Shown piece by piece: positions 4,964 through 20,757 of a stretch of DNA of 64,000 nucleotides. Positions within the stretch are counted from its first letter, which is position 1. Each line of letters opens with the position of its first letter. A program made the translations under genes and the position numbers. Below the pieces are notes generated by a model. It was not told the DNA's origin. It was given only the letters and a program-made list of their open reading frames with translations, and searched no databases. The DNA is from Janthinobacterium lividum (GTDB lineage Bacteria > Pseudomonadota > Gammaproteobacteria > Burkholderiales > Burkholderiaceae_D): assembly GCF_034424625.1 (NCBI RefSeq), contig NZ_CP139976.1:3534001-3598000 (forward strand). Direction: 5' to 3'.

Positions 4964-6502
4964 TCAATGTGCCGGCGCGCCGCAAGCCGTTTTCGCATCG
5001 GCAGTACCGGCACGCGAAACTTTCCCCACGCCTGTCAGAACCTGAAGTTCGACACGGCGGCCTTGCTCAAAACATGCCCGTTGCTTGAGCGAGTCCTTCA
5101 TCTCGCCGCAGCCGCTGATGCCGTCGCGATCCAGGCGTATGTCAATCAGTGCATCCGCCTCGCTGATCGATTTGTCGCGTACCAGTTGATGGAACACGGT
5201 GCATGCTCTTTTGTGCGCCAAAACGAAATTACCCTCTTTTTCGCGAGGCATCGGGTCGGCAAAGCCCACGATAACTACTTTTTTCTCTTCGCCTTTTTTT
5301 GCCCGCGGCATGAATTTATCGACGTACGATTTTGAAATAGCCCACTGCCCTTCTTCGAACGTCTCTTTTCCAGAGCTGAAATAGATCCCGTTTTTCAGCT
5401 CCTGGCAAACTGTCTCTTTCCCCCCTCTTGAAACCTTGACGCCGGCGCTATCCAACTCAATCCGCGTATCTGTTGTATCGGTGGCAGCCGTCCCTTTCAG
5501 TTCGATATAGCTGCGCAGGCCAACCCCATGCCACAGAACCCGGACATTACTGATCGAAAAGCTGTCGCCATCCATTTTGCAACTATGCAGCAACACACCC
5601 TTGGCATCGGCTGCAGCTTGCATCGTGGCGAAATTCGTTTTATTGACGATCAATACGGCATCGGAGCGCAACCCGAGGCCACTCATCACATAATTAAAAC
5701 TATGCTGGCCTGCCAGCAATGGAATATAGGCAAACAGGATTCCCACTGCAATACTGGCAAAAGCGCTCCGGGAGCTGGCGCTGAGGTTGGCCGTGGCGGG
5801 GCCGGGCGGAACGGGTGGAACGGGCGGAATGGGGGGCGGAAGCGGCACGAATGTGGAAAACATCGCCACGCCAAGACTTAAAAACATTCCTGAAAATAGC
5901 AACACCAAGGGTATTGCCAGAAAGCTGAAAACTCCACTGCCAGCGTCAGGCTTGTTTAGGGCGGCAATATATCCCAGCATGGACGTGGAAGCAATCAATG
6001 GCATAACGTAGGCGACGGCGAACCAGCCATCTTCCGTCAATTTGCGAGCCAGGTACCAGTACGCGCCAATGAGAACCACTGCTACGATACTTGACACGAC
6101 AAATTGACATCCACTGGCGGAGCCGGCGCCGTTGTTCAAAGCCTCAAAGAAAACCATAACCAGCAGCAGGGAAAGCAGCCAAAGACCAAGCAGGTATGCG
6201 GCACTCTTTAACTTCCCGGATGGGAGTATTTTTTGTGTAGCCCACGGAACAAAAGGCAAGAACCCCATGATGACCGATAAGGCACCGATACAGGAAAAAG
6301 CCAGCATTACAAAAATAAAGAATAATGTATCGCCAACACTTAACCCGGATGGGAAAAAACCAATCACGAAGAAACAATAAATAAAGACGGCAACCAGGCC
6401 AAAAGTAGAGCTCAGACCGGCACATAAACCACTCATGGTTTTCAGGCGTTCAATCCTGAGCTTTTTAATTTCGGCTATTTGCTTCTCTTCATCCAGTGTC
6501 AT
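4964..6502 (-). CDS. multi-spanning membrane protein with proline-rich hinge and OmpA-like C-terminal domain
   Basis: The 512-residue product has about eight hydrophobic segments between residues 25 and 285, with a proline-rich stretch (LPPPIPPVPPVPPGP, about 221-235) before the last one. It ends in a soluble domain (about 390-500) with an OmpA/MotB-like pattern: VVIVGFADP, then a LAHKRA helix, then ACFEQGRRVELQVL. In that family the fold binds peptidoglycan and carries a conserved Arg in the N/GRRVE motif. A periplasmic wall-binding role is an inference. GC is visibly lower than in flanking genes (many AT-rich codons), which suggests acquired DNA. No family is recognised for the membrane part. 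Confidence 0.7.
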   Translation of the reverse strand: MTLDEEKQIAEIKKLRIERLKTMSGLCAGLSSTFGLVAVFIYCFFVIGFFPSGLSVGDTLFFIFVMLAFSCIGALSVIMGFLPFVPWATQKILPSGKLKSAAYLLGLWLLSLLLVMVFFEALNNGAGSASGCQFVVSSIVAVVLIGAYWYLARKLTEDGWFAVAYVMPLIASTSMLGYIAALNKPDAGSGVFSFLAIPLVLLFSGMFLSLGVAMFSTFVPLPPPIPPVPPVPPGPATANLSASSRSAFASIAVGILFAYIPLLAGQHSFNYVMSGLGLRSDAVLIVNKTNFATMQAAADAKGVLLHSCKMDGDSFSISNVRVLWHGVGLRSYIELKGTAATDTTDTRIELDSAGVKVSRGGKETVCQELKNGIYFSSGKETFEEGQWAISKSYVDKFMPRAKKGEEKKVVIVGFADPMPREKEGNFVLAHKRACTVFHQLVRDKSISEADALIDIRLDRDGISGCGEMKDSLKQRACFEQGRRVELQVLTGVGKVSRAGTADAKTACGAPAH

Positions 6503-6843
6503 AATATTAGGCGGTGTATTGACGTTTAGATATTATAATGCAACCATCTTTCCTGAAGTCAATAAATTTGCAAGATTGGCATGGGCGGCGGAGTTCTGCC
6601 TGGGTGCCAGAAAACTGAGCCAGGTCAAGACTCTGCCTGCCGCCCGCCTGTTTCAATGGGTATTTCAGCCCAACCTTGCCAACCGCACTATAATGTTGGC
6701 ACCGCTTGCGGCAGCAATGGCGGCGATAGACGGTAACAATTTCGTGTGGAGGCCGGTACAATAGCGCCTGGGCCTACACAGGGTTTCACTTTTGCCAGCA
6801 GTTGCCAGCAACTAACCATTTTTTTGACCAGCCAACAAATACT
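6503..6843. other. divergent intergenic region upstream of fpr
   Basis: These 340 bases separate the divergent membrane protein gene and fpr. Besides the minus-strand promoter candidate, a plus-strand TATAAT at 6689-6694 could be the -10 of fpr, but no good -35 stands 17 bases before it. The small open frames in this stretch lack codon bias and ribosome sites. Confidence 0.4.
6532..6562 (-). promoter_or_regulatory. possible sigma70-type promoter of the OmpA-like membrane protein gene
   Basis: On the minus strand a TATAAT hexamer (plus coordinates 6532-6537) is preceded by TTGACT (6557-6562) with a 19-base spacer. Transcription would start about 20 bases before the ATG at 6502. The spacer is longer than the ideal 17, so the assignment is tentative. 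Confidence 0.35.
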
Positions 6844-7617
6844 ATGAGTTCGATGAATGAAGAGCGCGTTTTAAGCGTGCACCACTGGACGGATACCCTG
6901 TTCTCCTTTACCACCACGCGCGACCCGTCGCTGCGTTTCTCGAATGGCCATTTCACCATGATCGGCCTGCGCGTCGATGGCAAGCCGTTACTGCGTGCCT
7001 ATAGTATCGCCAGCGCCAATTATGAAGACCACCTGGAATTTTTCAGCATCAAGGTGCCGGGCGGTCCATTGACGTCGCGCTTGCAGCACTTGCAAGTGGG
7101 CGACACGGTCATCGTCGGCCGCAAGCCGACGGGCACCCTGGTGTCCGACTACCTGCTGCCAGGCAAGCGCCTGTACATGCTGTCGACGGGCACGGGCCTG
7201 GCGCCTTTCCTCAGCATCGTGCGCGATCCGGACATCTACGAGCGCTTCGACCAGCTGATCCTCGTGCACGGCGTGCGCCAGGTCGATGAATTGGCTTACC
7301 ACGACTTGCTGGAAGAGCATCTGCCGAAGCATGAGTTCCTGGGCGAAATGGTCAGCGACAAGCTGCGCTACTACCCTACCGTGACGCGCGAAGACTTCCG
7401 CAACATGGGCCGCATCACCGAACTGATCGAAAACGGCAAGCTGGCCGAAGATCTGGGCGTGCCGGCGCTGAACCCTGCCGAAGACCGCGTGATGATCTGC
7501 GGCAGCTCGGACATGCTGCGCGACCTGAAGGAAATGCTGGAAGCGCGTGGCTTCAAGGAAGGCAATACCTCGACGCCAGGCGACTTCGTTGTCGAGCGCG
7601 CGTTCGCCGAGAAGTAA
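6844..7617 (+). CDS. fpr: ferredoxin/flavodoxin--NADP(+) reductase
   Basis: The 257-residue FAD enzyme transfers electrons between NADPH and ferredoxin or flavodoxin, serving oxidative stress defence and Fe-S or reductive biosynthesis. The start MSSMNEERVLSVHHWTDTLF matches the N-terminus I recall for the Azotobacter-type (subclass I) FPR and was chosen over an upstream in-frame start at 6802. The FAD-binding RAYSIAS motif, the NADP-binding STGTGLAPFLSI and ICGSSDM motifs and the C-terminal VERAFAEK are all present, so the protein appears complete. It is monocistronic, ending at a strong hairpin terminator. Confidence 0.96.
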   Translation: MSSMNEERVLSVHHWTDTLFSFTTTRDPSLRFSNGHFTMIGLRVDGKPLLRAYSIASANYEDHLEFFSIKVPGGPLTSRLQHLQVGDTVIVGRKPTGTLVSDYLLPGKRLYMLSTGTGLAPFLSIVRDPDIYERFDQLILVHGVRQVDELAYHDLLEEHLPKHEFLGEMVSDKLRYYPTVTREDFRNMGRITELIENGKLAEDLGVPALNPAEDRVMICGSSDMLRDLKEMLEARGFKEGNTSTPGDFVVERAFAEK

Positions 7618-7646
7618 TCCGCAAAAGTCATCCGCAATACCCCAGG

Positions 7647-7687
7647 GGCCCGGCCCCGCCGCTTCCTGCGGCGGCGCCGGGCCTTTT
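7647..7687 (+). terminator. rho-independent terminator of fpr
   Basis: A long GC-rich inverted repeat (left arm 7647-7662, right arm 7668-7683, 5-base loop) is followed by TTTT, 30 bases after the fpr stop codon. Confidence 0.85.
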
Positions 7688-7997
7688 CATTGGTGGCGGC
7701 TACCGCAATCCATTCATGAAGCGCTGCAAGGACGTAAAGGCTTCCTGTCATGGCCGGAAACGAACAGCAGCGAGGCCGCACGGTCGGTCTTGACCTTGCT
7801 TGATCTGTCGCAAACGTGGCCTGTAAAACCGCATCGGGATTCGGCCGCATGCCAAAATAAATACGGCCCCTGATGGTGGCGCATCAGTCACGCTCGCTCC
7901 TGACAGAAATTGTCAGTGCTTTTCATTATGCTTTCGGCACCAGCAGGCCAGACAGCCTGTATTACTATTCATATCTCCACCTGCGACAGGACTTTTC
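7688..7997 (+). promoter_or_regulatory. upstream region of the DJ-1/PfpI gene with an inverted repeat
   Basis: This 310-base gap holds no convincing gene. At 7900-7916 it carries a perfect inverted repeat CTGACA-N5-TGTCAG, about 80 bases before the ATG. Its position fits a regulator-binding site for the DJ-1/PfpI gene, but no regulator gene is adjacent. Confidence 0.4.
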
Positions 7998-8582
7998 ATG
8001 ACACGTGCCATCACCATTCTGACCGAGAACTTTGCCGATTGGGAAACCGCCCTGATCAATTCCACGGCGCGCCTGTACTACGGCTTTTACACGCAGTTCG
8101 CCACGCCCGGCGGCTTGCCCGTCACCTCGTCCGGCGGCATGCTGGTCACGCCGCAACTGGCGCTGGAAGATATTGTGCTCGATGAACTCGATTTGCTGAT
8201 GGTATGTGGCGGCAGCCACTGGCAAAGCGGCAAGGCGCCCGACCTCTCCCCCTTGCTGCGCGCGGCCCGCGACAGGAATATCGTGCTGGCCGGCATTTGC
8301 GACGGCACGCGCGTGCTGGCGCAGGCGGGCGTGCTCGACACTGTGCGCCACACCTCCAATTCCGCCGACAACCTGAAGGATACCGGCTATGCGGGCGCCG
8401 CCCTGTACCAGGATGTGCCGTGGGCCGTGGCCGACCAGCGCGTCATCACGGCGCCCGGCACGGCGCCCGTCAGCTTTACGGCCGAGGTCTTGCGCTCCCT
8501 GGGCATAGCTGATGACAACCTGGCGGCTTACCTGGCCATGCACGGCGCCGAGCACGGCAAGGCAGCCCAGCCAATGCGCTAG
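7998..8582 (+). CDS. DJ-1/PfpI family protein (class I glutamine amidotransferase-like)
   Basis: The 194-residue protein has the DJ-1/PfpI fold: N-terminal ITILTENFADWE, then LMVCGG, and the nucleophile elbow AGICDGTRVLA with the reactive Cys at 101. Members act as chaperones, glyoxalases, amidases or isonitrile hydratases; the branch here cannot be fixed, though the DWE glutamate near position 15 occupies the place of the conserved acidic partner of the cysteine. It is cytoplasmic with no signal peptide. It stands alone, and its TAG overlaps the stop codon of the convergent gene by two bases. Confidence 0.85.
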   Translation: MTRAITILTENFADWETALINSTARLYYGFYTQFATPGGLPVTSSGGMLVTPQLALEDIVLDELDLLMVCGGSHWQSGKAPDLSPLLRAARDRNIVLAGICDGTRVLAQAGVLDTVRHTSNSADNLKDTGYAGAALYQDVPWAVADQRVITAPGTAPVSFTAEVLRSLGIADDNLAAYLAMHGAEHGKAAQPMR

Positions 8583-10054
8583 TTGGCATCCAGCACGCGC
8601 AGGCGCGCCACGGCGTGCGTGTTGCCCGGATCCAGTTCCAGCGAACGGCGGTAATGCGTGATGGCCAGCGCCTTGGCGCCGTCCGCCTCGTATGCTTCGG
8701 CCAGGCTGTCGTGGCCATTTGCCCCTTGCGGGTACAGTTGCACGCCGAGCTGGAAGACGGCTACCGCCTGTTTCGGCTGCTGCCGCCGCAGCAGACGGTA
8801 GCCCCAGGCATTCAAGTCATCGTCGGTGGGCGCAGAGAGCCCATGCTGGCGCCGGATGGCCGCCAGTTTCTTGTCCAGTCCATCGAAACCGGCGCTGGCC
8901 GCTTTGTTGCGCAGCAGGTGCGCGGCATACGCGCCGCCGCGCTGCTGGCGCAGGGCGGGAAGATAAAAGCCGGCGACGGTATCGATCAGCTGTTCCGGCT
9001 GGGCGCCGGCCAGGTTGCTCAGGATAACGACGGCCAGGCCATCGTTCGGATACACATAAAAGGCTGAACGGGCGCCGCCGATGCCGGCCACGGCACGGTG
9101 TCCATCGCGACCGATGGTGGGCCAGCCCAGCGCCCACGGCGCCGGCTTGCCGTCATTCAAGCTGGTCGGCTGCCACAGCCGTTCCACGCTGGCGGGCGCC
9201 AGCAGGCGCCCCGACTGCAGCGCGATGAGCCAGTTCGCCAGTTCACCCGCATTGCTGTTGATGCCGGCGCCGGCGCGCATGAACACGGGAAAGTCTTCGA
9301 TCACATTGCGGTAACCGTTACCGCCCCGGTCCAGCACGTAGGAACTGGCCTTGTTGGCGATCACGTCCTTTGCGTCGCCAAAGCCGCTGTGCCGCATGCC
9401 CGCCACGTCAAACTGCCCGCGCTGGACGAAGGCGGTAAAAGGCTGGCCGCCTTGCCGCTCGATCAATTGCGCCAGCAACACGTAATTGGTCTGGTTGTAG
9501 CGGTAGCGCTCGCCAGGCGGAGCTTCCACGGGCAGCGCCTGCACGGCTGTCCACGCCGCATCGGCGTCGTCCGGCTGCGGCCCCACCAGTTTGCCGCTGC
9601 GCTGGTCCAGCACATCGGGCAAACCCGAGGTATGGTTGAGCAATTGCGTCACCGTCACGGCTTGCCAGGCTGAAGGCAAGCCCGTCAGATACTGGCCGAT
9701 AGTCGCGGCCAGGTCGATCTTGCCCTGCTGCACCAGCTGCATGACGGCCACGCCGGCAAACGCTTTCGTTGCCGAATTGATGGAAAACAGGCTGGCGTCC
9801 GTCACCGGCACCTGGTACTGCAGGCTGGACAGTCCGAAATTGCGCGCCAGTACGATCTTGCCACGCTGTATCACGGCCAGTTGCAGCCCCGGAATCTGGC
9901 GCTCCTGCATTTCGCTGCGTACGAAGGCGGCAATCTCCTGTTCCGCGTTGAACACCTTCGGCTGGCTGGCGGCAGTGGCAGTGGCAGCCACGGCGCCAAC
10001 GGGGACGGCGGCAAGCGCCACGAGGAGCAGGACAGACGGGAGGCGTGGGTTCAA
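8579..10054 (-). CDS. exported serine hydrolase, beta-lactamase class C / DD-peptidase-like, with C-terminal repeat region
   Basis: The 491-residue protein starts with a signal peptide (hydrophobic core about 7-24, Ala-rich cleavage region). The serine-lactamase SxxK motif is S94-A-T-K97, and a YNQTNYVLL element fits the YxN motif. Such proteins are peptidases, esterases or true AmpC-like enzymes; nothing here shows beta-lactam resistance. After the catalytic domain a TPR-like stretch (about 415-490, with LLRRQQPKQAVAVFQLG and HYRRSLELDPGNTHAVARL) probably mediates protein contacts. The start codon appears to be TTG at 10054, since no ATG precedes the signal sequence. Confidence 0.87.
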   Translation of the reverse strand: MNPRLPSVLLLVALAAVPVGAVAATATAASQPKVFNAEQEIAAFVRSEMQERQIPGLQLAVIQRGKIVLARNFGLSSLQYQVPVTDASLFSINSATKAFAGVAVMQLVQQGKIDLAATIGQYLTGLPSAWQAVTVTQLLNHTSGLPDVLDQRSGKLVGPQPDDADAAWTAVQALPVEAPPGERYRYNQTNYVLLAQLIERQGGQPFTAFVQRGQFDVAGMRHSGFGDAKDVIANKASSYVLDRGGNGYRNVIEDFPVFMRAGAGINSNAGELANWLIALQSGRLLAPASVERLWQPTSLNDGKPAPWALGWPTIGRDGHRAVAGIGGARSAFYVYPNDGLAVVILSNLAGAQPEQLIDTVAGFYLPALRQQRGGAYAAHLLRNKAASAGFDGLDKKLAAIRRQHGLSAPTDDDLNAWGYRLLRRQQPKQAVAVFQLGVQLYPQGANGHDSLAEAYEADGAKALAITHYRRSLELDPGNTHAVARLRVLDAN

Positions 10055-10139
10055 GATGTGGCTTTCGGCAGGAGAAAACGGAACCGCAGCATCCCATACC
10101 TATTTATCAACGTCAACGACAATCTTGCCGTTCAGAAAG

Positions 10140-10469
10140 TTACTCTTCCAGCCACACGTCTTCATACCCTTCCCGGTCGAGAATGAACTTGGCGCCACTG
10201 GGCAAGGCCAGGTAATCGACCACCTGCGGCAGCAGTTCGTGCAGGTGGTCCGCATGCAGAGGCTGGTAAAAGCCGCTGGCATCGTCGTGCTCACCGCAAT
10301 GGATGAACCAGCTGATGGTGCCGTTTTCCGGCAGCGCGATGCGCGTGCCGTAGATGGGCGACTGCGCCAGGCTGGCGATGGCCAGGGCCACCATGGGCTC
10401 GGGCGCCTGGGCCGGCAAACCGAATTTGTCGCAGATGCGCCGTTGTGTTTCGCTGATCAGTTCAGTCAT
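10140..10469 (-). CDS. Imm33-like (DUF2185-type) protein
   Basis: The 109-residue protein resembles the Imm33 family of predicted immunity proteins: SWFIHCGEHDD, then FYQPLHADHLHELLP, then FILDREGYEDVWLEE follow the family pattern GWYIWxGE...PLHxxHL...YEDVWF as I recall it. In that family members are thought to neutralise secreted or contact-delivered toxins. No toxin gene is visible here. It starts 6 bases after the stop of the companion gene at 10476-10856, so the two form an operon. Confidence 0.7.
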   Translation of the reverse strand: MTELISETQRRICDKFGLPAQAPEPMVALAIASLAQSPIYGTRIALPENGTISWFIHCGEHDDASGFYQPLHADHLHELLPQVVDYLALPSGAKFILDREGYEDVWLEE

Positions 10470-10475
10470 GGTGTT

Positions 10476-10856
10476 TCAGGATCCGATGTAGTGGTAATGC
10501 AGGCGCAGCGCGCCGTCGTGGCCGGACATTTCCAGGTGCAAGGTCGCTTCGCCCGGCTTGCCGTCGGCCAGCAACATGCATTCCAGGCCCAGTGGTCCGG
10601 CGTCGGTGGCATACACATCGACGGCGGGACGGCCACCCTTGCCCGGCACGAAGGCTTGCGCCAGCGGCGCCAGGGACAATGTCTGGCTAGCAGCAAAATA
10701 ACTGTCGAGCATCTCGATGATCTCGTCGGCCACGCCCGGCGACAAGCCCCAGTCGCGCTGCAGTGCAACAGGATCGCGCGTGTCCAGCGTCTGCACGAAG
10801 GCGGCGGCCTGCGCGTATGCCAGCTGTCGCAGGCTGTCTGTGATGGCCATTTCCAT
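10476..10856 (-). CDS. hypothetical protein paired with the Imm33-like gene
   Basis: This 126-residue cytoplasmic protein is not recognised. It has an N-terminal helical half and a C-terminal half rich in alternating beta-like stretches (ATLHLEMSGHDGALRLHYHYIGS). There is no signal peptide or membrane segment. Two start codons are possible (10856 and 10850). The tight spacing to the Imm33-like gene suggests joint function, perhaps a second immunity-type protein, but this is inference only. Confidence 0.6.
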   Translation of the reverse strand: MEMAITDSLRQLAYAQAAAFVQTLDTRDPVALQRDWGLSPGVADEIIEMLDSYFAASQTLSLAPLAQAFVPGKGGRPAVDVYATDAGPLGLECMLLADGKPGEATLHLEMSGHDGALRLHYHYIGS

Positions 10857-11159
10857 AGAGTACGTCGTGCCTTATCCATTCAACAGGCGCCATTATAGTG
10901 CGTCGCCGCGGGAATGCTCGATCCGTTTGCCATCAATAATTGAGTACCGTGCCGATTATTTAAAGTGCCGCGCTTATTATTTATCGCACTGCAATAACAT
11001 AAATGGCTCGCGTGATATTTGGTGAGTATTTGAAAAATATAACCGCGGATACGATTGATTTTCAAGTTGACGCTTATTTATTCAGGCGCTAATATCGAAT
11101 GGCCATATACCATGGCATACAGCGCAAGCAGTACTTAACCATCACAAGAGGATAGTACA
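10857..11159 (+). other. AT-rich upstream region of the RiPP locus
   Basis: Some 300 bases of visibly lower GC lie between the divergent hypothetical gene and the first precursor peptide gene. It contains the sigma70-type promoter annotated separately and a good ribosome site (AAGAGGA at 11146-11152). No other gene is seen. Confidence 0.5.
11067..11095 (+). promoter_or_regulatory. sigma70-type promoter of the RiPP precursor genes
   Basis: TTGACG (11067-11072) and TAATAT (11090-11095) are separated by exactly 17 bases. Transcription would begin near 11102, about 58 bases before the first precursor ATG. Confidence 0.6.
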
Positions 11160-11348
11160 ATGCAAAACCAAACCAAATTGTTCGCATTCAAACTGGCTGA
11201 AAAACAGGTACAAAAACAGGAAGCGCCCGCCACCGCCTGGAAGGTGCGCGACGGCGTCGCCGTGGCCGGCTGCACCGCCGTTGGCACCCATGATCAATAT
11301 CGCGACTCTTCGCGCCTCAAGCCCAACGACAGCGGCCAGTATTGCTGA
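11160..11348 (+). CDS. RiPP precursor peptide 1 (graspetide-like)
   Basis: The 62-residue peptide has a lysine-rich N-terminal leader with TKLFAFKLAEK (5-15), a spacer, the block WKVRDGVAVAGCTAV (27-41) and a short Ser/Asp/Lys-containing tail ending in Gln-Tyr-Cys. It shares both blocks exactly with the second peptide at 11537-11722, while spacer and tail vary, as expected for a leader/core precursor. The two Cys (38 and 62) are conserved in both peptides. It is preceded by AAGAGGA at 8-base spacing and followed by a terminator, then by an MvdD-like ATP-grasp gene, which in known clusters joins Asp/Glu side chains to Ser/Thr/Lys. Function as inhibitor or antibacterial is unknown. Confidence 0.8.
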   Translation: MQNQTKLFAFKLAEKQVQKQEAPATAWKVRDGVAVAGCTAVGTHDQYRDSSRLKPNDSGQYC

Positions 11349-11363
11349 TACCCGGCACGCCAT

Positions 11364-11387
11364 AACCCCCGCCCGGCGTGGGGGTTT
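11364..11387 (+). terminator. hairpin terminator after precursor peptide 1
   Basis: AACCCCC (11364-11370) pairs with GGGGGTT (11380-11386) around a 9-base loop and runs into TTT. It lies 15 bases after the stop of precursor 1. Confidence 0.6.
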
Positions 11388-11536
11388 CATATATTCCCCC
11401 ATATTCAAATTGGCGCCGTGCGGCGCGGCTATTCCGCGCGCAATGCATATACAAACACCTTTCAATTAAAGTTTCCATTTTTTAAAATAAGTATTTATCG
11501 GTAAAAATCGGAACACGACCATTAATAGAGGATCTC

Positions 11537-11722
11537 ATGCACAAAGAAACCAAACTGTTCGCATTCAAACTGGCGGAAAAAAAGGAAGAAGAAAAGCCAG
11601 CGCATCCTGCGCTCTGGAAAGTACGCGATGGCGTCGCCGTGGCCGGCTGCACGGCTGTCGACAGCGAGGAGCAATACCGCTATTCGCGTATCGGTTCAAG
11701 TGACGGCGGCGAGTTCTGCTGA
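11537..11722 (+). CDS. RiPP precursor peptide 2 (graspetide-like)
   Basis: The 61-residue peptide is a paralogue of precursor 1: residues 5-15 and 27-41 are identical, QYR at 46-48 is kept, and both end in an aromatic residue plus Cys. Spacer (KEEEKPAHPAL) and tail (a Ser/Asp/Glu-rich stretch ending GGEFC) differ. Tail acidic and hydroxyl residues are the natural candidates for ATP-grasp lactone or lactam formation. It has its own ribosome site AGAGGA (11527-11532) and is followed by a strong terminator before the enzyme genes. Confidence 0.8.
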   Translation: MHKETKLFAFKLAEKKEEEKPAHPALWKVRDGVAVAGCTAVDSEEQYRYSRIGSSDGGEFC

Positions 11723-11737
11723 TACGTTCGCCAGCTG

Positions 11738-11763
11738 AAAGCCTTGCCACGGCAAGGCTTTTT
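11738..11763 (+). terminator. terminator or attenuator between precursor 2 and the biosynthetic genes
   Basis: AAAGCCTTGC (11738-11747) pairs with GCAAGGCTTT (11752-11761) around a CACG tetraloop, followed by TTT. It sits in the 68-base gap before the ATP-grasp start and would give high precursor and low enzyme transcript levels by partial read-through. Confidence 0.7.
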
Positions 11764-11790
11764 CACCTTCCTTTACCGCAAGCCCACGAC

Positions 11791-12804
11791 ATGCACAAAA
11801 AGGTTTTGATTATCAGCCATAGCGGCGATCTGCACGTCGACCTGGTCGAAGCCATCCTCGCCGCCCGCGGCCATGCCCCCTTCCGTATCGACCTCGACGC
11901 CTTTCCCCGCGATTATCAGCTGTGCCAGCGCCTGCACGACGGCCGCGCCAGCGCGCGCATGCGCCACTTGCCCGATGGCGACTGGCTAGACCTGCAGCAG
12001 GTGGGCGCCGTCTGGCTGCGCAAGGCGGCCGACTACGCCTACGCCAGCGCCGACCTGACGCCGCAGGAGCGCGCCTACGCGCAGCTGGAAACGGAGCAAG
12101 CCATCTTCAGCGTGCTGTACGGGCTCGATTGCTACTGGCTCAGCCATCCGCTAGCCCTGCGCGGTGCCCAATGGAAAGGTGAACAGCTTGCGCGTGCCGC
12201 GCGCATGGGCTTTCGCGTGCCCGCCACCGTGATCACCAACGTGCCCGACGACGTGCGCGCTTTCTGCGCTGCCATCAAAGGGCCTATCATTTTCAAGAGC
12301 ATGTCGACGCCCAGCCTGGCCGCCGAAGCGGTCGAGGACGTTGACAGGGTCAGCGCCGGCATCGGCACCACCATCGTCGACGATGCCATGCTCGATAGCC
12401 TGGACGCCGTCAGCGAACTGAGCTGCCAGTTCCAGGAATATATCGCCAAGCAATACGAACTGCGGATCACAGTGATCGGCAAACAACTGTTTGCCGCGCG
12501 CCTGTATTCCCAGGACGATGCGCGCACGGCCATCGACTCGCGCGACATGTCGGCCCCCATCCGCTATGAAGCATGCACCTTGCCAGCGGAAATACAGCAG
12601 CGCTGCCTCGCTTTCGTGCACAGCTATGGCCTCGAATATGGCGCGCTCGATCTCATCGTCACGCCCGGGGGCGAGTATGTTTTCCTGGAAAACAATCCTG
12701 TTGGTCAATTCTTGTATGTACAACAACTGGTACCAGCCTTGCCCATGCTGGAAAGCGTGGCCGCAGCCCTGATCGAAGGAGCCGTATGCCGCAGCCAGAC
12801 TTGA
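11791..12804 (+). CDS. MvdD-like ATP-grasp peptide ligase (graspetide synthetase)
   Basis: The 337-residue cytoplasmic enzyme belongs to the ATP-grasp ligases that macrocyclise ribosomal peptides. Family features are the N-terminal VWLRKA strand, the ligand-binding stretch YELRITVIGKQLFAARL, SQDD...TAIDSRD, and the metal/ATP site EYGALDLIVTPGGEY-VFLENNP-GQFLYVQ near the C-terminus. It would recognise the LFAFKLAE leader and join acidic core side chains to Ser, Thr or Lys. The ribosome site before its ATG is weak compared with those of the precursors. Its end overlaps the protease gene by 19 bases. Confidence 0.88.
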   Translation: MHKKVLIISHSGDLHVDLVEAILAARGHAPFRIDLDAFPRDYQLCQRLHDGRASARMRHLPDGDWLDLQQVGAVWLRKAADYAYASADLTPQERAYAQLETEQAIFSVLYGLDCYWLSHPLALRGAQWKGEQLARAARMGFRVPATVITNVPDDVRAFCAAIKGPIIFKSMSTPSLAAEAVEDVDRVSAGIGTTIVDDAMLDSLDAVSELSCQFQEYIAKQYELRITVIGKQLFAARLYSQDDARTAIDSRDMSAPIRYEACTLPAEIQQRCLAFVHSYGLEYGALDLIVTPGGEYVFLENNPVGQFLYVQQLVPALPMLESVAAALIEGAVCRSQT

Positions 12805-13652
12805 ACCAGATCCCCGTCCGGCTGCGCGAACTGGAACAGGCGCGCGACAGCCGCGCCATCGTCCTGGCCGCCTCGCATCTGGACATGGAGCTGCTGCCCG
12901 CCCTGTACGAGCTGTGCCAGGGCATCGGCCCCGTGGCGCGCCTCGACGTGGTGCTGCACGGCCGCGGCGGCATCGTCAACGCGGCGCGCCGCATCGCCAT
13001 CCTGCTGCGCCAGCATGCGCGCCACCTGAGCTTTATCGTGCCCTTCCACTGCCAGTCGGCCGCCACCCTGCTGGCCCTGGGCGCCGATGAAATCATCGCG
13101 GGCGACCTGGCCCTGTTCACGCCCATCGATCCGCAGCTCGATGGCGCCGACGGCGGCTCGATGTCCAGCCTCGATATCAAGGTATTCGGCGACATGGCGC
13201 AGCAGTGGTTTGGCGTCGATGCCAGCGAGGCGCGCCAGCAATCGCTGTCCCTGCTGTGCGGCAGCATCTTCCCCCCTTCCCTGACGGCCTTCTACCGCAC
13301 CACCCTGGAGCTGGCACAGATCGGCGAAGAATTACTGGCCTGGCAATTGCCCGATGCCACGCAAGAGGCGCGGCGGGCCATCATCGCGCAACTGGTGACG
13401 GGTTATCACTCGCATAACTATGCCTTGACGCGCGAAGAGCTTGCCCAGCTGGGCCTGAACATGGCGCGCGATATCCACGCCGAAAGGCTGGGCTGGGCCA
13501 TTTCGACGCAATTGCAGGCAAGCATAGGCGGCGCCTTGCGCAGCGCGCCCGACGAGCCATGGAACGATGCCCTGCTGGCGTCACGCGACGGCGTGCAGCT
13601 GCGGCGCCAGCGTCCGGGCGGCTTCGCGCCCATGTGGAGCGCACAATGCTGA
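12786..13652 (+). CDS. SDH-type (Clp-fold) serine protease in the RiPP cluster
   Basis: The 288-residue protein matches the serine dehydrogenase proteinase (SDH_sah) family, related to Clp/SppA: VVLHGRGGIVNAARRIA supplies the oxyanion-hole region and VPFHCQSAATLLALGADEI carries the nucleophilic Ser before ALGADEI. There is no signal peptide, so it acts in the cytoplasm or at the inner face of the membrane. In this context it is the only protease candidate for removing the leader, because the exporter lacks a C39 domain. The ATG at 12786 is chosen for its GGAG ribosome site and the overlap with the ligase gene; it overlaps the next gene by 7 bases. Confidence 0.82.
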   Translation: MPQPDLNQIPVRLRELEQARDSRAIVLAASHLDMELLPALYELCQGIGPVARLDVVLHGRGGIVNAARRIAILLRQHARHLSFIVPFHCQSAATLLALGADEIIAGDLALFTPIDPQLDGADGGSMSSLDIKVFGDMAQQWFGVDASEARQQSLSLLCGSIFPPSLTAFYRTTLELAQIGEELLAWQLPDATQEARRAIIAQLVTGYHSHNYALTREELAQLGLNMARDIHAERLGWAISTQLQASIGGALRSAPDEPWNDALLASRDGVQLRRQRPGGFAPMWSAQC

Positions 13653-14167
13653 CGTCCGTGCTGGCCGCGTTACTGGCCGACATCGCGCGCTACTGTATCG
13701 CCCTGCTGCTGCTGGCGGCCAGCGTGGGCAAGCTGCGCAGCTACGGAGACTTTCGCGGCAACCTGGCCACCTCGTTCGGCGTACCGCCCGCCGCAGCCCA
13801 ATTCGCTGCGCCAGCCCTGGTGATGACAGAATTGCTGCTGGCCGGCTGGCTGCTGGCCGGCGGTACCCACACACCGATGCTGCTGTCGCTATCGCTGCTC
13901 AGCACGCTCACCGCCATATTGACTTACCGCTACTTCACGCACAGCGTGGTGCGCTGCAGCTGCTTTGGCGAAGCGGCACGGCCCGTGTCGCAGTACGACC
14001 TGCTGCGCAACATGCTGGCGGTCGGCATCAACGGCGCCTACTTTGCGCTGGCGCAGGAAACGGCCTTGCCCGTCGCCACCTCCATATTGGCCGCCGGCCT
14101 GGCAGCCATCATGTGCGTGGCCACGATTTCCCTGCACGAGATCGCCACTTTGGCAAAGGCAGACTGA
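13646..14167 (+). CDS. MauE/DoxX-like membrane protein with CxC motif
   Basis: The 173-residue protein has four to five hydrophobic segments and the MauE-type signature: an N-terminal LLLAASVGKLRS helix end and VRCSCFGEA, where MauE proteins carry a redox Cys pair before Phe-Gly. MauE is needed for disulfide formation in methylamine dehydrogenase; the family fits a quinone- or thiol-linked oxidant in the membrane. Lying between the protease and a thioredoxin-like gene, it probably handles the thiols of the precursor peptides. Coupled to its neighbours by 7- and 1-base overlaps. Confidence 0.82.
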   Translation: MLTSVLAALLADIARYCIALLLLAASVGKLRSYGDFRGNLATSFGVPPAAAQFAAPALVMTELLLAGWLLAGGTHTPMLLSLSLLSTLTAILTYRYFTHSVVRCSCFGEAARPVSQYDLLRNMLAVGINGAYFALAQETALPVATSILAAGLAAIMCVATISLHEIATLAKAD

Positions 14168-14721
14168 TGGATTCCACGACTTTGCAACTGGTGCTGGCGG
14201 CGCTGGCGTTTGCCCTCGCCGGCAATATCTGGCTCAGCCTGGCCGTGCTGCGCGCCAGCCGCCGCGAACGCATCGCGCCCACGGCGCTGGAGCCGGGCCA
14301 GCCCCTGCCTGCCGTGCAAGCCCGTCCGCTGGCTGGCGGCGCGCATTTCCAGCCGGGCGCCGGCGGCCAGGCGGCCGTGCTGCTGTTCCTGGCCAGCCGC
14401 TGTCCGAAATGCGGGGAAAAGCTGGCCGGCATCGAACAGTTGCTGCCGCTGGCGCGGGAGGCAGGCCTGGCCCTGTGGCTGATCAGCGAAGAGCCGGTCC
14501 GCCGCCTGCGCGCCTTTTTGCCCGGCAACACCTTGCGGGCGGCCACGGCACGGCTGACGCTGCGCGACTACCGGCGCGTGAATCCGCTAATGAGCTCGCC
14601 TTCCTATGTATTCGTCAATCACCAGGGCAGCGTGGAAGCGGCCGGCCTGATCGGCGATGAAGACTGGCTGGCCCTCGTCGAGCAACTGGCTGACGAGACG
14701 ACACAGGAGCGCGCCGCATGA
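14167..14721 (+). CDS. membrane-anchored thioredoxin-like (MauD/TlpA-type) protein with CPKC
   Basis: The 184-residue protein has one N-terminal membrane helix (about 7-27) and a thioredoxin-like domain with the redox motif RCPKCGEKL (Cys about residues 81 and 84). The cis-Pro region appears as SSPSYVFVN. Domain architecture matches MauD-like disulfide oxidoreductases and, with the preceding MauE-like gene, forms a recurring pair. A role in oxidising or isomerising the two conserved Cys of the peptides outside the cytoplasm is inferred. Starts in a TGATG overlap. Confidence 0.83.
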   Translation: MDSTTLQLVLAALAFALAGNIWLSLAVLRASRRERIAPTALEPGQPLPAVQARPLAGGAHFQPGAGGQAAVLLFLASRCPKCGEKLAGIEQLLPLAREAGLALWLISEEPVRRLRAFLPGNTLRAATARLTLRDYRRVNPLMSSPSYVFVNHQGSVEAAGLIGDEDWLALVEQLADETTQERAA

Positions 14722-16490
14722 GTCATCTGAATGTTGGCCCGCATCTTGAACGCCTGCGCCTGCTGTATCCCGTGCGCTGGCGCGTCGCCGCCGGCCTGGT
14801 GTGCATGGCCCTTACCGTGGGCGCGCAGCTGGCCTTTCCGCAAGCCATCGCGTATTTCATCGACAACGTGGCGGAATTGACCCGGCGCGGCGTCACGCCG
14901 GGCATGGTCGCCACCATGTTGGCCTTCAGCCTGCTGTATGCGCTGATCACGACCGCGCGCTTCTATTTGCTGCAATCGAGCGGCCACATGATCGTCATGG
15001 GCGTGCGCCGGCGCCTGTTTGACGTGGTGATCAATCAGCCCATCGCCTTCTTCGACAAGCACCATGGCGGCGAACTGAACAGCCGGCTGACATCCGACGT
15101 GTCGGCCCTGCATGAAAGCTTGACCATCGGCGCGGCCAATGCCCTGCGCTCGCTATGCGTCTTTCTGGGCGGCATCGCCATGCTGCTGCATCTGTCACCC
15201 ATGCTGAGCCTGCCGCTGGCCCTGTTCATTCCCATCAGCCTGTATCTCGGCAAGTTATCAGGCAGCAATTACCGGCAGCGTTCGCGGGCCATTTCCGCCA
15301 CCCTGGCCGCCAGCGGCAAGGTGGCGCAGGAATACTTTGCCCATGCCCGGCTGGTGCAGGCATTCAACCAGCAGGGCGGCGCCATGGCCCGCTATGCGCA
15401 AGCCATGCGGCAACTGCTGGAGGTGTCCCTGGCCGGCACGCGGCTGCTGGCCGTGTTCCAGGGCGCGCAAGGGCTGCTGGCTTTTGTTGCCCTGCTGACC
15501 ACCCTGTGCTTCGGCGCCCACCTGATCGGCCAGGGCCGCTTGAGCGTGGGAGAGCTGACGGCTTTTGTCATCTATGCCAGCATGGTGACGGACACGGCCG
15601 GCTCCATCAGCGAATTCTGGAACACGTGGATGCGCACCATGGGCTCAACCGACCGCATCTTCGAGATCCTGCGCAGCCACCGCGCCGTGCCCGAGGCGAC
15701 GCCGCAACCGCCGCTGGCCGGCCACATCGCGCTGCGCGACGCGCGCTTTTCGTATCCCGAGCGCACGCAGGTCACGGCCCTCGACGGCGTCAGCCTGTCG
15801 ATACGCGCGGGCGAAAAGATCGCCCTGGTGGGCGCCTCGGGCGCGGGCAAGTCCACCATCGCCAGCCTGGTGCTGGGCCACTACCAGCTTGACGCGGGCA
15901 GCCTGCAGTTCGACGGCATCGATGCAGGCATGCTGGGCGTAACGCAACTGCGGCGCCAGATGGCCGTGGTGGAACAGGAACCTGCCCTGTTTTCCGGCAG
16001 CATCGCGGACAATATCGCCTTTGCCGTGCCGGACCGCCAGGTGACGCGCGAAGAGATGCTGGCGGCAGCGCGCCTGGCGCATGCCCACGATTTTATTCAA
16101 GCTTTTCCTGACGGCTACGAGACCCTGGTGGGAGAACGGGGCGTGCAATTGTCCGGCGGACAGAAGCAGCGCATCGCGATCGCCCGCGCCATCCTGCGCG
16201 CGCCGAAAATCCTCATCCTGGACGAAGCCACCAGCGCGCTCGACGCCGCCAGTGAACAGCAGGTGCAGCTCGCCCTCGATACCCTGATGCATGGGCGCAC
16301 CACCATCATCATCGCCCACCGCTTCTCCACCATCGTGAAAGCGGACCGCATCATCGTCATGGACAAGGGCCGGATTTGCCAGCAAGGCACGCACGCCGAG
16401 CTGCTGCGCGCGGGCGGCCAGTATGCGCGGCTGATGCAGCAACAGTTGTCGCAATTCCAGCAGTTGCATGCTAGTGCGGCAACGCTGTAA
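14718..16490 (+). CDS. ABC exporter (fused permease-ATPase) of the RiPP cluster
   Basis: The 590-residue half-transporter has six membrane helices (about 20-310) and an ATPase domain with Walker A GASGAGKST (372-380), the signature LSGGQKQR (from 478), Walker B ILILDEATSALD and the H-loop IIIAHRFSTI. It is of the MsbA/lipid- and peptide-exporter class. There is no N-terminal C39 peptidase domain, so it would export but not cleave the peptide. ATGA overlap with the thioredoxin-like gene makes it the last gene of the cluster. Confidence 0.92.
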   Translation: MSHLNVGPHLERLRLLYPVRWRVAAGLVCMALTVGAQLAFPQAIAYFIDNVAELTRRGVTPGMVATMLAFSLLYALITTARFYLLQSSGHMIVMGVRRRLFDVVINQPIAFFDKHHGGELNSRLTSDVSALHESLTIGAANALRSLCVFLGGIAMLLHLSPMLSLPLALFIPISLYLGKLSGSNYRQRSRAISATLAASGKVAQEYFAHARLVQAFNQQGGAMARYAQAMRQLLEVSLAGTRLLAVFQGAQGLLAFVALLTTLCFGAHLIGQGRLSVGELTAFVIYASMVTDTAGSISEFWNTWMRTMGSTDRIFEILRSHRAVPEATPQPPLAGHIALRDARFSYPERTQVTALDGVSLSIRAGEKIALVGASGAGKSTIASLVLGHYQLDAGSLQFDGIDAGMLGVTQLRRQMAVVEQEPALFSGSIADNIAFAVPDRQVTREEMLAAARLAHAHDFIQAFPDGYETLVGERGVQLSGGQKQRIAIARAILRAPKILILDEATSALDAASEQQVQLALDTLMHGRTTIIIAHRFSTIVKADRIIVMDKGRICQQGTHAELLRAGGQYARLMQQQLSQFQQLHASAATL

Positions 16491-16920: not shown

Positions 16921-17814
16921 TCAGCCGCTTTCTGCGCATACATCGATGGTGACCAGACCGGCCGCGGCCGCCAGCGGCAGCCACAGCATGGCGTCGGCCA
17001 GTACCTCGTCCGGCGCCCTGCCGCTAGCCCGCGCCGCCTGCCCCGCGCACTGTGCCAGCGGCGCGCCGCCGGCCAACGCTTGCAGCCAATAAAACTGCCA
17101 GGGCTGCAAATCCTGCATGGCAAGCCGGTAATGCATGCGCGAAATGGCGACAAAGGCGGACCTGGCACCAGGCTGGGCCGGCACGGCGTCGTCCGGCGCG
17201 GCCTGCGCCTGTTGCCAGTAGTCGGACAAGGGGAACGACAGGGCCAGCAGCCGCGTGCACGGCGCCAGGCGCCAGGCCGGTGCATTTCCCAATAGCGAAT
17301 CCAATCCGCACGGCCACATGGGCGGCGCCAGCTTTTCCAGGCCGGACGCCCTGCCCGCTTCGCTGCGCGCCCGTTCCAGCTGCGCCAGTTCGACGGGAAA
17401 GCGCAAGGCGGCGCCCTGCGCGCCGGCGGCATGCTGGCTGGCGGCGAGAAAATCGGCAAAGCCGGCGCCCAGGTCGTACAGGGTCGCGGATGCGGACGGG
17501 TGGCGCCAGACATAGGCGCGGGCAAAGAAGGCGAACAGCTCGTCACCCATGACCTTGCGCAACACGGGATAGTCGGCTTGCAGGCATTCGAGCAGGCGCT
17601 GCACATAGCCGTCCGCATGGATGTGCAGCGGCGCCGGCCCGCCCCTGGCCCGTTTCAATACTTGCTCCTGCGTCAAGCCATGGCGCTCGCTGGCCAGCTG
17701 GACGCCGCGCGCCGCGCCGCCCGGCGCCGTCATCGCCGTTAGGAACCATGCCTGCAATTGCGCCAGCGGTGCGCGGGCCTCGCCAGATTCGCCTGCTGCG
17801 GTGCTACGGGGCAT
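16921..17814 (-). CDS. DUF2063 family MNIO partner protein (HvfC/BufC-like)
   Basis: The 297-residue protein begins with the DUF2063 pattern [12 protein letters not shown] and contains [25 protein letters not shown], typical of this family. DUF2063 proteins accompany DUF692 enzymes and help deliver the peptide substrate. The ATG at 17814 overlaps the DUF692 gene by 11 bases and gives a family-like N-terminus; the frame is open further upstream but that part reads as shadow. It is the third gene of a minus-strand operon with the DUF692 and ferritin-like genes. Confidence 0.85.
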
Positions 17815-18733
17815 GGGCCGCCTCCAGGTGAAAGCCCAGCGGCGCAGAGACGGCGGCGGCAGCCGTGACTGGTGCCACATCCGCGAATTCTCCCCGCTCG
17901 GCCGCGCGCGCCTTGTCGAGCTCGGCCAGCAGCTGCGGGTACGGGGGAATCTCCGCATCCCATTCCAGCAGGGCCGACACGCCGCCCGTCAGCCGCTGCG
18001 CCAGCGCGTACAGGCGCCACACGGCGGCCGGCACGGGGGCGTCATGGGTATCGATCAGCACGGCGCCGCACACGGTGGGGCCGGCCAGGTGGATCTGCAC
18101 GATGTGCGCGTGCGGCAACTGGCGGATGTAGTGGGCCGCGTCATAGCCGTGGTTATGCGCGCTGACGTGGACATTGTTGACGTCGAGCAAGAGTCCGCAG
18201 CCCGTGTCTTCGGCCAGGCGGCCCAGGAATTCCCATTCCGGCATGCTGGACTGGGCAAATTCCACGTAGCTGCTGGGGTTTTCCAGGACCAGCGGACGGC
18301 CCAGGAATTCCTGCACCTGCCGCACGCGTCCCGCCACGTGGCGCAGGCTGGCCTCGTCCAGCGGCAGCGGCAGCAAGTCGTGGCTGTTGAGCGAGGCGGC
18401 GCCCGTCCAGCACAGGTGGTCGGAAATCCACGCGGGCCGGATCTCGCCGGCCAGCTGGCGCAGCTTGCGCAGATAGCCGAGATTGAGCGGATCGCTGCTA
18501 CCGATCGACAGCGAGACGCCATGCATGACGATGGGCACTTGCGCCGCCACCTGCTCCAACACATGGCGCGCATAGCCGTGGTTGTCGATGAAGTTCTCGC
18601 TGATGATCTCGAACCAGTCCACCTGCGGACCGTGACGCAGGATGTGCGCATAGTGCGGCGGGCGCAGCCCCACGCCCAGGCCCAGGTTCGGCAAGCCCAA
18701 GCGTGGCGCCACCGTGTGCATGGCGCGCCGCAT
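17804..18733 (-). CDS. DUF692 multinuclear iron oxidative enzyme (MNIO; HvfB/BufB/MbnB-like)
   Basis: The 309-residue TIM-barrel enzyme keeps the family metal and structural motifs in order: [58 protein letters not shown] and [17 protein letters not shown] enzymes use two or three iron ions to modify Cys (or Asp/Asn) of ribosomal peptides, as in methanobactin (MbnB), 3-thiaglutamate (TglH) and bufferins. The start at 18733 is set by a TGATG junction with the ferritin-like gene. With DUF2063 beside it, the upstream cysteine-rich protein is the obvious substrate candidate. Confidence 0.93.
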
Positions 18734-20757
18734 CAGGTCGACGGCGGCAAGGCCAGGCGCAGGTCGGTAGGCGCCGGCGGCGCCCCCACCGGCGTGCCGC
18801 GCGCCGCCATCACCTTGCCGTAGGCTTCCCAGGCCTTGTCGTAGACATTGTCGCCCAGCGCAAAGCTCATGGTCTGGCCCAGCGGAATGCTGCGGTGCTC
18901 GGGCGCGGGTCCGAAATCGTACAAAGTCATGGTGGCAGGCTCGGGCGGTTCCTTGCCCGTCGTGTTCGGATACAGCTGCGAGGCCGAAATCGGCACGGCG
19001 CAGCCGCCGAATCCCCCGCATTTGTTGTCGCTGGGCGCGCTGTAGACTTTATCGGCCTGCGGCGGAGGCGGCGGCACATAGCACGGCGTGCCCGGCGACG
19101 CGGCAAGCTTGACCGAGTGGCCGCAGGACGAACCGCCCGTGTCGGCCTGGGCAAAGCCGCAGCCGCCCTGGGCATGGCAGCCGTTGGAGCCGCGGCAGGT
19201 ATGGTAGACGGCCAGCGCGGCGCAGGTGGACGAGGCCTCGCCTGCCAGGTGCATGCCCTGGCAGGCGTGGTACAGCACGCTTTTCTCGGCCAGCGGCACG
19301 CCCGTCGCCAGGTTCGGCGCCTGGCCCAGCACGGCCCAGCAGATGGCCATGCGGTCGCCCGCGCCCACCATCGACGGATACGGAAAGTCCAGTTGCTGGT
19401 TCTGCCAGTACTTGTCCAGCACGGAAGTGATGCCGTAGATGGCGCCCGTGGCCACCGTGCTCAGCATCTCCAGGGTGCCGCTGGCGTCCTTCAGGCGGTT
19501 CAGGGCACCCGCCACGGCCGCCGGCGCCGGGATATTCTGCGGCGCGCTGGCCGGGTTGTAGCGTTCGTTGGTCAGCATGGCCGCGCTCCACTGCTGGCCC
19601 TGCTTGTGCCAGCTGGCCCAGGTAGTCACGGGCAGCATCGCCTTGACCTGGCCGAAACGCTCGTAGTGGTCGAACGGGGCGCTGTCGTGGCGCGCCTGCG
19701 CGTCGCGCGATTCGGCATCCTTGCCATTATTCGCGTAGGACGGATAATCGCACTTCAAGGCATCCAGGTCTTCGCGGTAGTCGGGCTGCACGGCCTTCAG
19801 GCGCAGTGCCGCATCGCGGCGGTAGCGCTGGATGGCCGCTTCGCTGCCCTCGCCCTGGTCCGTGATGGCCGCCATCATGTCGATGGCCTTGTTGAACGAG
19901 CCCGTCTGGCCGCCATCCTGGTCCTGCGGGCCGAAGCAGGTATCGAATTTGGGAAATTCCGCCCGCGCATGGCCCTGGACCTGGCTATTGAACATGTCCT
20001 GCTGCACCGAACCGTTGACGAACAGCTTTTGCCACAGGGTCTGGCCATCCGCGTATTCGATGCTGATGTAGCGCGCATAGCATTCATACATGTAGCCGAT
20101 GGTGCCGAACAGGGGCAAGTCGTGCACGTGCTTGCCCGGCGTCCAGCCCGGCAGCGGCACTTCCGGGAAGTATTTGGTGTGGTTGTGCTTGTCGAACTCG
20201 GCCAGCTGGGCGCGTGCCTGCTCCTCGGGTTGCTCGATGGCGAGGAACAGGTCGCACTGGTTGCTGTTCAGCTCTTCCAGGTTGACGCGCACGTGGCGGT
20301 AGCCGGACGTGTCCTGCAAGTCGACGATGTGCGGGATCACCGTGCAGCTCTTGCCGTAGCAAGTCCAGCCATGGTCCTGCGATTGCAGCTCCGAACCCGT
20401 GAAGCATGGCGCCGTGCCGATGGCCGTGGCCAGGTTGGCCGCCATCTGCAGGTGCAGCATTTCCTGGATGAAGACGCTGAAGATGATGTTGAAGGCCTTT
20501 TGCTCCTTCAGCTCGGGCCGGGCCGTGGTGCCCATGCCCGGCCACTGGCGGCCCTCATAGTAGGTGACGCCTTTCGAGTTGATCTGGTGCGTGCCGTGGA
20601 TCGAGTACATGGTGGCCATGTACAGGGGAATGGTGAACAGCTCGACGCTGACGGCCGCCTGGGCGATGGCGCGCACGGCGGCCGTGTCGGTGTCCAGCAT
20701 GTCGAGCGGGCGCCTGATGATGGGGGCCTGGGTGCTTCCTAAAACGGGCATTTTCAT
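18733..20757 (-). CDS. large ferritin-like protein with cysteine-rich C-terminus, candidate MNIO substrate
   Basis: The 674-residue protein opens with a ferritin-like domain of the VioB-associated type (about 25-260; [19 protein letters not shown] and [14 protein letters not shown] give ExxH-like metal ligands). A middle region of unknown fold follows. From about residue 505 the sequence turns Cys-rich: nine of 17 Cys lie there, including [25 protein letters not shown] and [11 protein letters not shown], resembling cysteine repeats of MNIO substrates. The end ([12 protein letters not shown] and onward) is plain. There is no signal peptide. A GGAG ribosome site precedes the ATG at 20757. Role: possibly an iron or copper protein modified post-translationally. 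Confidence 0.82.

Follow-up and report, generated by a model that had tools for sequence, protein, structure and literature searches.

Several described systems come close to the gene cluster considered here: the graspetides, including the microviridins with their ATP-grasp ligases MvdC and MvdD, the graspimiditides, represented by fuscimiditide (ThfA/ThfB; group 13), and candidate families of ribosomally synthesized and post-translationally modified peptides (RiPPs) proposed by decRiPPter. In the main text of one graspetide survey (Makarova 2022, PMC8939145), a single ester is possible in just two new precursor clusters, 281 and 1028, and a Phhx(1,2)h leader motif is described for about half of the precursors, so that it is not universal in the class. 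Another study, according to its text, tried eleven graspetide clusters, among which Gra-8 from Lysobacter capsici has three links and four conserved acceptors (PMC9576775). As for decRiPPter, the text of PMC7794033 reports mauE in three candidate families of Streptomyces and mauD in one, describes separate ATP-grasp families with no direct similarity to graspetide ligases, and presents MauE-MauD pairs as best known from methylamine dehydrogenase maturation. The cluster treated here was found in the window, by which is meant the whole stretch of 64,000 nucleotides analysed from Janthinobacterium lividum (assembly GCF_034424625.1, contig NZ_CP139976.1, positions 3,534,001 to 3,598,000, forward strand), where it occupies positions 11160-16490 and encodes, in this order, two precursor peptides, an ATP-grasp ligase, an SDH-type serine protease (SDH), a MauE-family membrane protein, a CxxC protein and an ATP-binding cassette (ABC) exporter. 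A check of reading frames and translations found these seven frames at the positions given by a first-pass annotation, and both coordinates and profile scores agree with the gene order read there. That the locus is graspetide-like, as also proposed at that stage, is supported by the ligase family, the precursor motif and the co-occurrence of the genes.

The cluster is a conserved system that recurs in distantly related bacteria. A ligase scan of genome contigs gave 48 loci, in 37 of which an SDH gene directly follows the ligase gene; the hosts of these SDH-linked loci comprise Oxalobacteraceae, Lysobacteraceae, Chromatiaceae, Alteromonadaceae, Pseudoalteromonadaceae, Alphaproteobacteria, one Myxococcota and one Bacteroidota (a metagenome-assembled genome), and none of those found is actinobacterial. 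In the other 11 loci (L034, L037-L045 and L048, from cyanobacteria, Elusimicrobia and Chloroflexota), whose ligases have 29-40% identity, neither an SDH match nor a precursor of this type was found; they lie apart from the SDH-linked loci in the ligase tree and are kept out of the counts, L034 beginning inside the ligase gene with its upstream side unseen. The first-pass annotation had proposed a joint neighbourhood search with the ligase and SDH proteins, and had held that peptide genes not conserved beside homologous ligases would speak against it. Among 245 genomes of the host family, the ligase (E<=1e-30, 60% identity or more) is present in 21, and the same 21 hold a close SDH gene (E<1e-90), in each case within about 50 bases of the ligase gene, while four other genomes gave distant SDH matches only (E 7e-19 to 7e-12); precursor genes, for their part, lie upstream of the ligase in 35 of the 37 SDH-bearing loci, and the contigs of the two without one (L025 and L046) start inside the ligase gene. 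The cluster was found in 10 of the 19 same-genus genomes listed, host included, and its distribution is therefore patchy. A close ligase occurs in the host only among 369 genomes of the host class, eight others having matches of 27-35% identity, and a plasmid collection contains 53 ligase-matching records, all below 60% identity, of which the one examined is a Streptomyces tgmA/tgmB cluster with a methyltransferase.

Neither window precursor matches a family in Pfam, NCBIfam or PHROGs, and the two share 59% identity. They are real genes, because an iterated profile recovers 75 homologues near the ligase, and because the ratio of nonsynonymous to synonymous polymorphism (pN/pS) of precursor 2 among seven Janthinobacterium copies is low (0.00 in the leader pieces, 0.05 in the core); a chance or artefactual origin is ruled out by conservation, pN/pS and co-occurrence. 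Loci carry one to four precursors, or nine each in L007 and L008. In the latter two, nine different precursors stand in a row (5900-7950) ahead of one ligase gene, a natural peptide library. A database search with precursor 2 gave 57 matches, and 661 were obtained with a profile built from 27 precursors, while in the host genome just the two known copies are convincing, with four more matches at E 0.09-0.8.

Two sets of precursors were compared. The first, with all rows obtained by profile search, contains the 75 from the loci and the window's two, one pair being alike, and thus 76 distinct precursors with 67 distinct cores. Cys1-Ser/Thr2, preceded by Gly, and Asp(-6)-x-Gly(-4)-x-x-Cys(-1) are kept in 76 of 76; the leader/core split was itself placed at [AS]GC[ST], present in all 77 rows, Asp(-6), Gly(-4) and Cys(-1) lying outside that choice. 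The leader mostly ends in W-[KQ]-x-R-[DE]-G-V-A-x-A-G and the core in D-x-G-x-[YWF mostly]-C, with one extra Ala after the last Cys in four of the 76. Cores measure 17-34 residues and contain two Cys in 72 cases and three in four, and the loop between the anchors is hypervariable, without any fixed sequence. Apart from the conserved positions, no column of the anchored part (the first ten and the last twelve) goes above 37% Asp/Glu or 45% Ser/Thr/Lys, so that the alignable columns hold one invariant hydroxyl residue, one Asp and two Cys. This is the alignment that the first-pass annotation had called for, and its outcome matches what would be predicted from the combination of side-chain crosslink and disulfide suggested there. 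Every distinct precursor thus has a conserved candidate donor and acceptor in its core; in eight of the 67 distinct cores residue 2 is the sole Ser, Thr or Lys, and therefore the only standard donor. The contrast between the constant and the variable parts is also seen between paralogues of the same locus, with an identity of 0.66 in the leader against 0.31 in the core interior, the leader being the higher in 106 of 107 pairs. The second set consists of 158 proteins from a database of 5.8 billion proteins (the 57 precursor 2 matches and 120 of the 661 profile matches), with 143 cores, 22 of them common to the first set. Among these listed matches, 152 of 158 show the full pattern, Asp(-6) being present in 158, Ser/Thr2 in 156 and Gly(-4) in 154; one of the deviating precursors has Ala for the Gly before Cys1, two have Cys for Ser/Thr2, and four are without Gly(-4), one of these being also a Cys case. 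No precursor without two Cys was found in the first set or among those listed in the second. In P0242 and P0177 the core starts with Cys-Cys instead of Cys-Ser/Thr, and the donor atom would change if the crosslink were kept.

The ligase belongs to the MvdC/MvdD type, as it matches PF21068 with 62.6 bits (Pfam cut-off 27) and the PDB entries 5ig8 (E 5e-40), 7mgv (E 2e-38) and 5ig9 (E 6e-37), its matches to NCBIfam TIGR04187, TIGR04184 and TIGR04185 staying below the curated cut-offs. Its nearest named relative, from Janthinobacterium sp. BJB426, is 94% identical, and the host genome holds one ligase match at E<=0.001. In the ligase tree, a branch supported at 98/94 separates 36 SDH-linked loci and the window from 21 other rows, two of them repeats; the tree is midpoint-rooted and carries a long-branch warning, L047 being among the long branches. 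Ligase distances track those of SDH, MauE, the CxxC protein and the ABC exporter (r 0.94, 0.95, 0.94 and 0.91, shared descent uncorrected). From the family and the invariant residues, the ligase is predicted to form the Ser/Thr2-Asp(-6) crosslink. A second, distant (30-33%) graspetide-type ATP-grasp protein occurs in three family genomes (G144:C12:1078-2016, G235:C1:2102172-2103134 and G155:C1:232488-233450).

The SDH protein reaches 66.8 bits against PF01972 (cut-off 31.3) and 78.9 bits against NF047768, below the cut-off of 250, and its model, with a predicted local distance difference test (pLDDT) score of 91.6, has a ClpP/1510-N fold. Residues S91, D115, H210 and G61-G62 are invariant in 29 aligned proteins; the first three, which are likely catalytic, are also common to four distant SDH proteins. 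In PHROGs it matches phrog_11747 (E 3.9e-26), of unknown function, phrog_21683 (E 6.8e-10) and, at E 0.005, a family of head maturation proteases. We predict that this protease removes the leader at the Gly/Cys1 junction. The name SDH is also used in PMC9239112, in the part of that paper concerned, for a ClpP unrelated to the window protease. Elsewhere in the host genome there are two C39 peptidase matches (G000:C2:391479-391862 and G000:C1:3360380-3360748), in frames of ~725 codons.

MauE scores 73.5 bits against PF07291 (cut-off 27), and C104, C106, K29 and E62 are invariant in 31 aligned proteins, two fusions left out. The CxxC protein is named by its fold, because its sequence match to AhpC-TSA stays below threshold (20.9 against a cut-off of 26); C79 and C82 are invariant in 33 aligned proteins, and the model of a fused homologue has a thioredoxin fold of the ResA/TlpA type. 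Such fusions of MauE and the CxxC protein into one protein occur in L012 (Rugamonas rivuli, 9898-10824) and L023 (Pyxidicoccus, 9883-10869), and the L012 model has a pLDDT of 93.9, its fold alignment spanning residues 167-308, i.e., the CxxC part, with the MauE part outside the fold comparison. The cluster thus encodes a MauE/MauD-type pair, a MauE profile match with a CxxC partner of thioredoxin fold, with invariant CxC and CxxC motifs and a natural fusion. Both genes are present in the fetched DNA of 32 of the 37 loci, fused in two and, in L036, lying upstream on the other strand. Among the five loci without the pair (L009, L010, L026, L046 and L027), the first four belong to genomes which have it next to another SDH gene, with 44-58% identity to the first (the second clusters being L016 for L009 and L019 for L010), and one redox pair may therefore serve two clusters of a genome. 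Judging from sequence, oxidation would be the simplest reading of this pair. In the 590 residues of the exporter, whose gene is present in 33 of the 37 loci, only PF00664 and PF00005 reach their cut-offs; there is no C39 match, so the protein is not a peptidase-containing ABC transporter.

A further recurrent feature is a hairpin followed by T-rich sequence between the last precursor and the ligase gene, seen in 26 of the 33 gaps scanned, that of the window among them, where dinucleotide shuffles would give 1.3 (at least eight pairs, one mismatch allowed, three overlong gaps skipped). The window hairpin at 11738-11763 is not listed by a separate promoter/terminator scan with a stricter T rule, which yielded 3 and 5 sites, respectively, compared with 1.8 and 4.7 for shuffled sequences. 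The hairpin is likely an attenuator, by which precursor transcript would exceed enzyme transcript.

Gene content, co-occurrence, invariant residues, the variable loop and the fold assignments being established, we infer from them the chemical steps, the cut site, the cellular places and the order of a pathway. The ligase would bind the leader via the K.FAFKLA motif (mostly conserved as F-x-F-[KQ]-[LV]-A, without Pro) and link the side chains of Ser/Thr2 and Asp(-6), making one macrolactone. In the cytoplasm, SDH would then cut between Gly(-1) of the leader and Cys1, and the core would be carried by the ABC exporter into the periplasm; there, MauE together with the CxxC protein, anchored in the membrane, would join Cys1 to the C-terminal Cys. 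The product would be a variable loop held by two nested clasps, the ester inside the disulfide, and its use, by analogy, would most likely be protease inhibition or another interbacterial role. With both clasps closed, the monoisotopic mass is predicted to be 2780.203 for core 1 and 2638.070 for core 2. That the cluster is a graspetide-type RiPP system with ligase, SDH, exporter and redox steps acting in this way is probable. The wider proposal, for which we see slightly less than an even chance, is that it represents a RiPP subclass of its own, with a constant two-clasp frame (ester within terminal disulfide) around a hypervariable loop, one ligase for up to nine precursors per locus, a ClpP-fold SDH that would be a leader peptidase of a new type, and a MauE-CxxC system dedicated to the disulfide and shareable by several clusters of a genome. 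If true, this would extend the graspetides in three ways: by a product that carries an enzyme-made ester as well as a dedicated disulfide, by leader removal through a new type of protease, and by a natural library whose single ligase accepts very different loops between fixed anchors; it would also allow the function of MauE-MauD pairs to be tested on a peptide of ~25 residues. The sharp boundary between constant and variable parts makes the system attractive for loop grafting, and the cluster is a good candidate for a new peptide family, for laboratory testing.

Several observations weigh against this pathway, and with them come other explanations. As to the crosslink, only one of the 67 distinct cores has Asp(-6) as its sole acidic residue, the others holding extra Asp/Glu that are possible acceptors (0-5 further ones in the loops); six of the 158 listed database precursors deviate from the full pattern, and the leader motif has no counterpart to the Pro in the Phhx(1,2)h motif that the text of PMC8939145 describes. 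The ligase could instead use the loop acids, join a Cys as a thioester, in line with the Cys at position 2 in two of the 158 listed, or add an external group to Asp(-6). This appears quite improbable, since the invariant hydroxyl/carboxylate pair is the proposed one only (76 of 76) and the ligase belongs to the MvdC/MvdD branch. With regard to the redox step, no MauE/CxxC pair was found at all in the L027 genome, and the closest folds of the CxxC domain are of the ResA, DsbE and TlpA types. Studied members of these types mostly reduce disulfides, and therefore the pair could work in the opposite direction, keeping Cys1 and Cys(-1) as thiols, e.g., for metal binding or for fixing wrong pairings. 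Such a role is rather unlikely, given that the two end Cys of an exported peptide, once in the periplasm, tend to become oxidised if nothing keeps them reduced. Speculation that MauE helps disulfide formation is also reported by the authors of decRiPPter, with reference to earlier work (text of PMC7794033).

Regarding export and leader removal, no exporter was found in the DNA fetched for L023, L025, L026 and L046, and the two C39 genes of the host could cut the AG site in trans, the AG/Cys junction resembling double-glycine sites. SDH would then be a self-protection protein, and PMC13097080 states in its main text that such co-occurring proteins may serve self-resistance. Nevertheless, we consider this unlikely: SDH adjoins the ligase in all 37 loci that carry an SDH gene and in all 21 family genomes with the ligase, being steadier than either the exporter (33/37) or the redox pair (32/37), and its likely catalytic Ser, Asp and His are invariant, which would be needless in an inert decoy. 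A more serious possibility, although still short of even, is that the cluster falls into group 9 of published surveys, an ordinary graspetide group already in the catalogue; this would be compatible with the pathway proposed above. According to the main text of the 2026 survey PMC13097080, more than half of the group 9 clusters include a serine proteinase, and the NCBIfam name of the protease family is 'SDH family Clp fold serine proteinase'. However, PMC8939145 assigns the core motifs of groups 8, 9 and 11 to its cluster 2, tied to an actinobacterial branch, which weakens the assignment because the SDH-linked loci found are never actinobacterial; moreover, the main texts of both papers contain neither MauE nor Janthinobacterium, and that of PMC8939145 has no SDH, Clp or thioredoxin either. 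Literature searches, with the group 9 accession lists (Lee 2020, Ramesh 2021 and the PMC13097080 supplement) outside their scope, gave no description of a window-type cluster. Thus, the graspetide variant appears new, as the texts of the surveys searched lack the SDH/MauE combination, but it may already bear a group number, that of group 9.

The features of the locus are collected in the table below. The first-pass annotation had stated that all biosynthetic genes overlap; this holds for the five downstream genes, from ligase to ABC exporter, which overlap successively by 19, 7, 1 and 4 bases, and not for the precursor genes, neither of which overlaps anything.

Coordinates of the features of the cluster within the window
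Feature	Position	Strand	Remarks
Precursor peptide 1	11160-11348	+	62 aa; leader motif KLFAFKLA 11175-11198; predicted core 11271-11345, CTAVGTHDQYRDSSRLKPNDSGQYC
Precursor peptide 2	11537-11722	+	61 aa; leader motif 11552-11575; predicted core 11648-11719, CTAVDSEEQYRYSRIGSSDGGEFC
Hairpin then T run, precursor 2/ligase gap	11738-11763	+	putative attenuator
ATP-grasp peptide ligase, MvdD type	11791-12804	+	337 aa; PF21068
SDH-type ClpP-fold serine protease	12786-13652	+	288 aa; PF01972; predicted leader peptidase
MauE-family membrane protein, CxC motif	13646-14167	+	173 aa; PF07291
Thioredoxin-fold protein, MauD/TlpA-like	14167-14721	+	184 aa; hydrophobic N-terminal stretch; CPKC motif
ABC exporter	14718-16490	+	590 aa; membrane + ATPase domain (PF00664, PF00005)

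Just upstream of the cluster, the minus strand encodes a beta-lactamase-fold/TPR protein (8579-10054) and an Imm33-like protein (10140-10469). On the other side, also on the minus strand (16921-20757), there are a multinuclear non-haem iron-dependent oxidase (MNIO; PF05114, 17804-19021), its DUF2063 partner (16921-17958) and a ferritin-like protein (PF12902, 18733-20757) with a Cys-rich C-terminal part, possibly an MNIO substrate fused to a ferritin-like domain. The cluster was rejected as a part of this neighbouring MNIO operon, an MNIO homologue being found in just 5 of the 48 loci, all Janthinobacterium, within the limited flanks fetched.

When compared with known systems, the cluster shares with graspetides and microviridins (MdnB, 5ig8; CdnC, 7mgv) the MvdD pre-ATP-grasp domain, a short leader-core precursor encoded next to the ligase and the Ser/Thr and Asp candidates in the core. 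The window ligase, however, shares 29-32% identity with the ligases that the same scan found in cyanobacteria and Elusimicrobia, and unlike microviridins the cluster has a single invariant donor-acceptor pair, two invariant Cys, SDH and the MauE and CxxC proteins, with a KxFAFKLA leader without the Pro motif. Among the modified graspetides described in the text of PMC9576775, Gra-8 is the only one whose source family also includes SDH-linked loci. SDH-type ClpP-fold proteases (PF01972) have relatives in 1510-N, SppA and ClpP, whereas here the protease has a constant place next to a peptide ligase; a review devoted to the leader peptidases of RiPPs (PMC10885120) mentions no Clp, SDH, S49 or SppA in its main text. 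The decRiPPter candidates resemble the cluster in having a MauE or MauD homologue and a Cys-containing precursor, although their precursors, according to the text of PMC7794033, have at least 8 Cys, in contrast to the 2-3 of window-type cores, which therefore do not belong with them. Finally, the graspimiditides also form a stem-loop with crosslinks around a loop, and ThfB tolerates loops of 0-72 residues, a precedent for the variable loop according to the text of PMC12291112. They differ in bearing several crosslinks and an aspartimide made by a methyltransferase, whereas the window cluster has no methyltransferase gene and the outer clasp of its product is predicted to be a disulfide.

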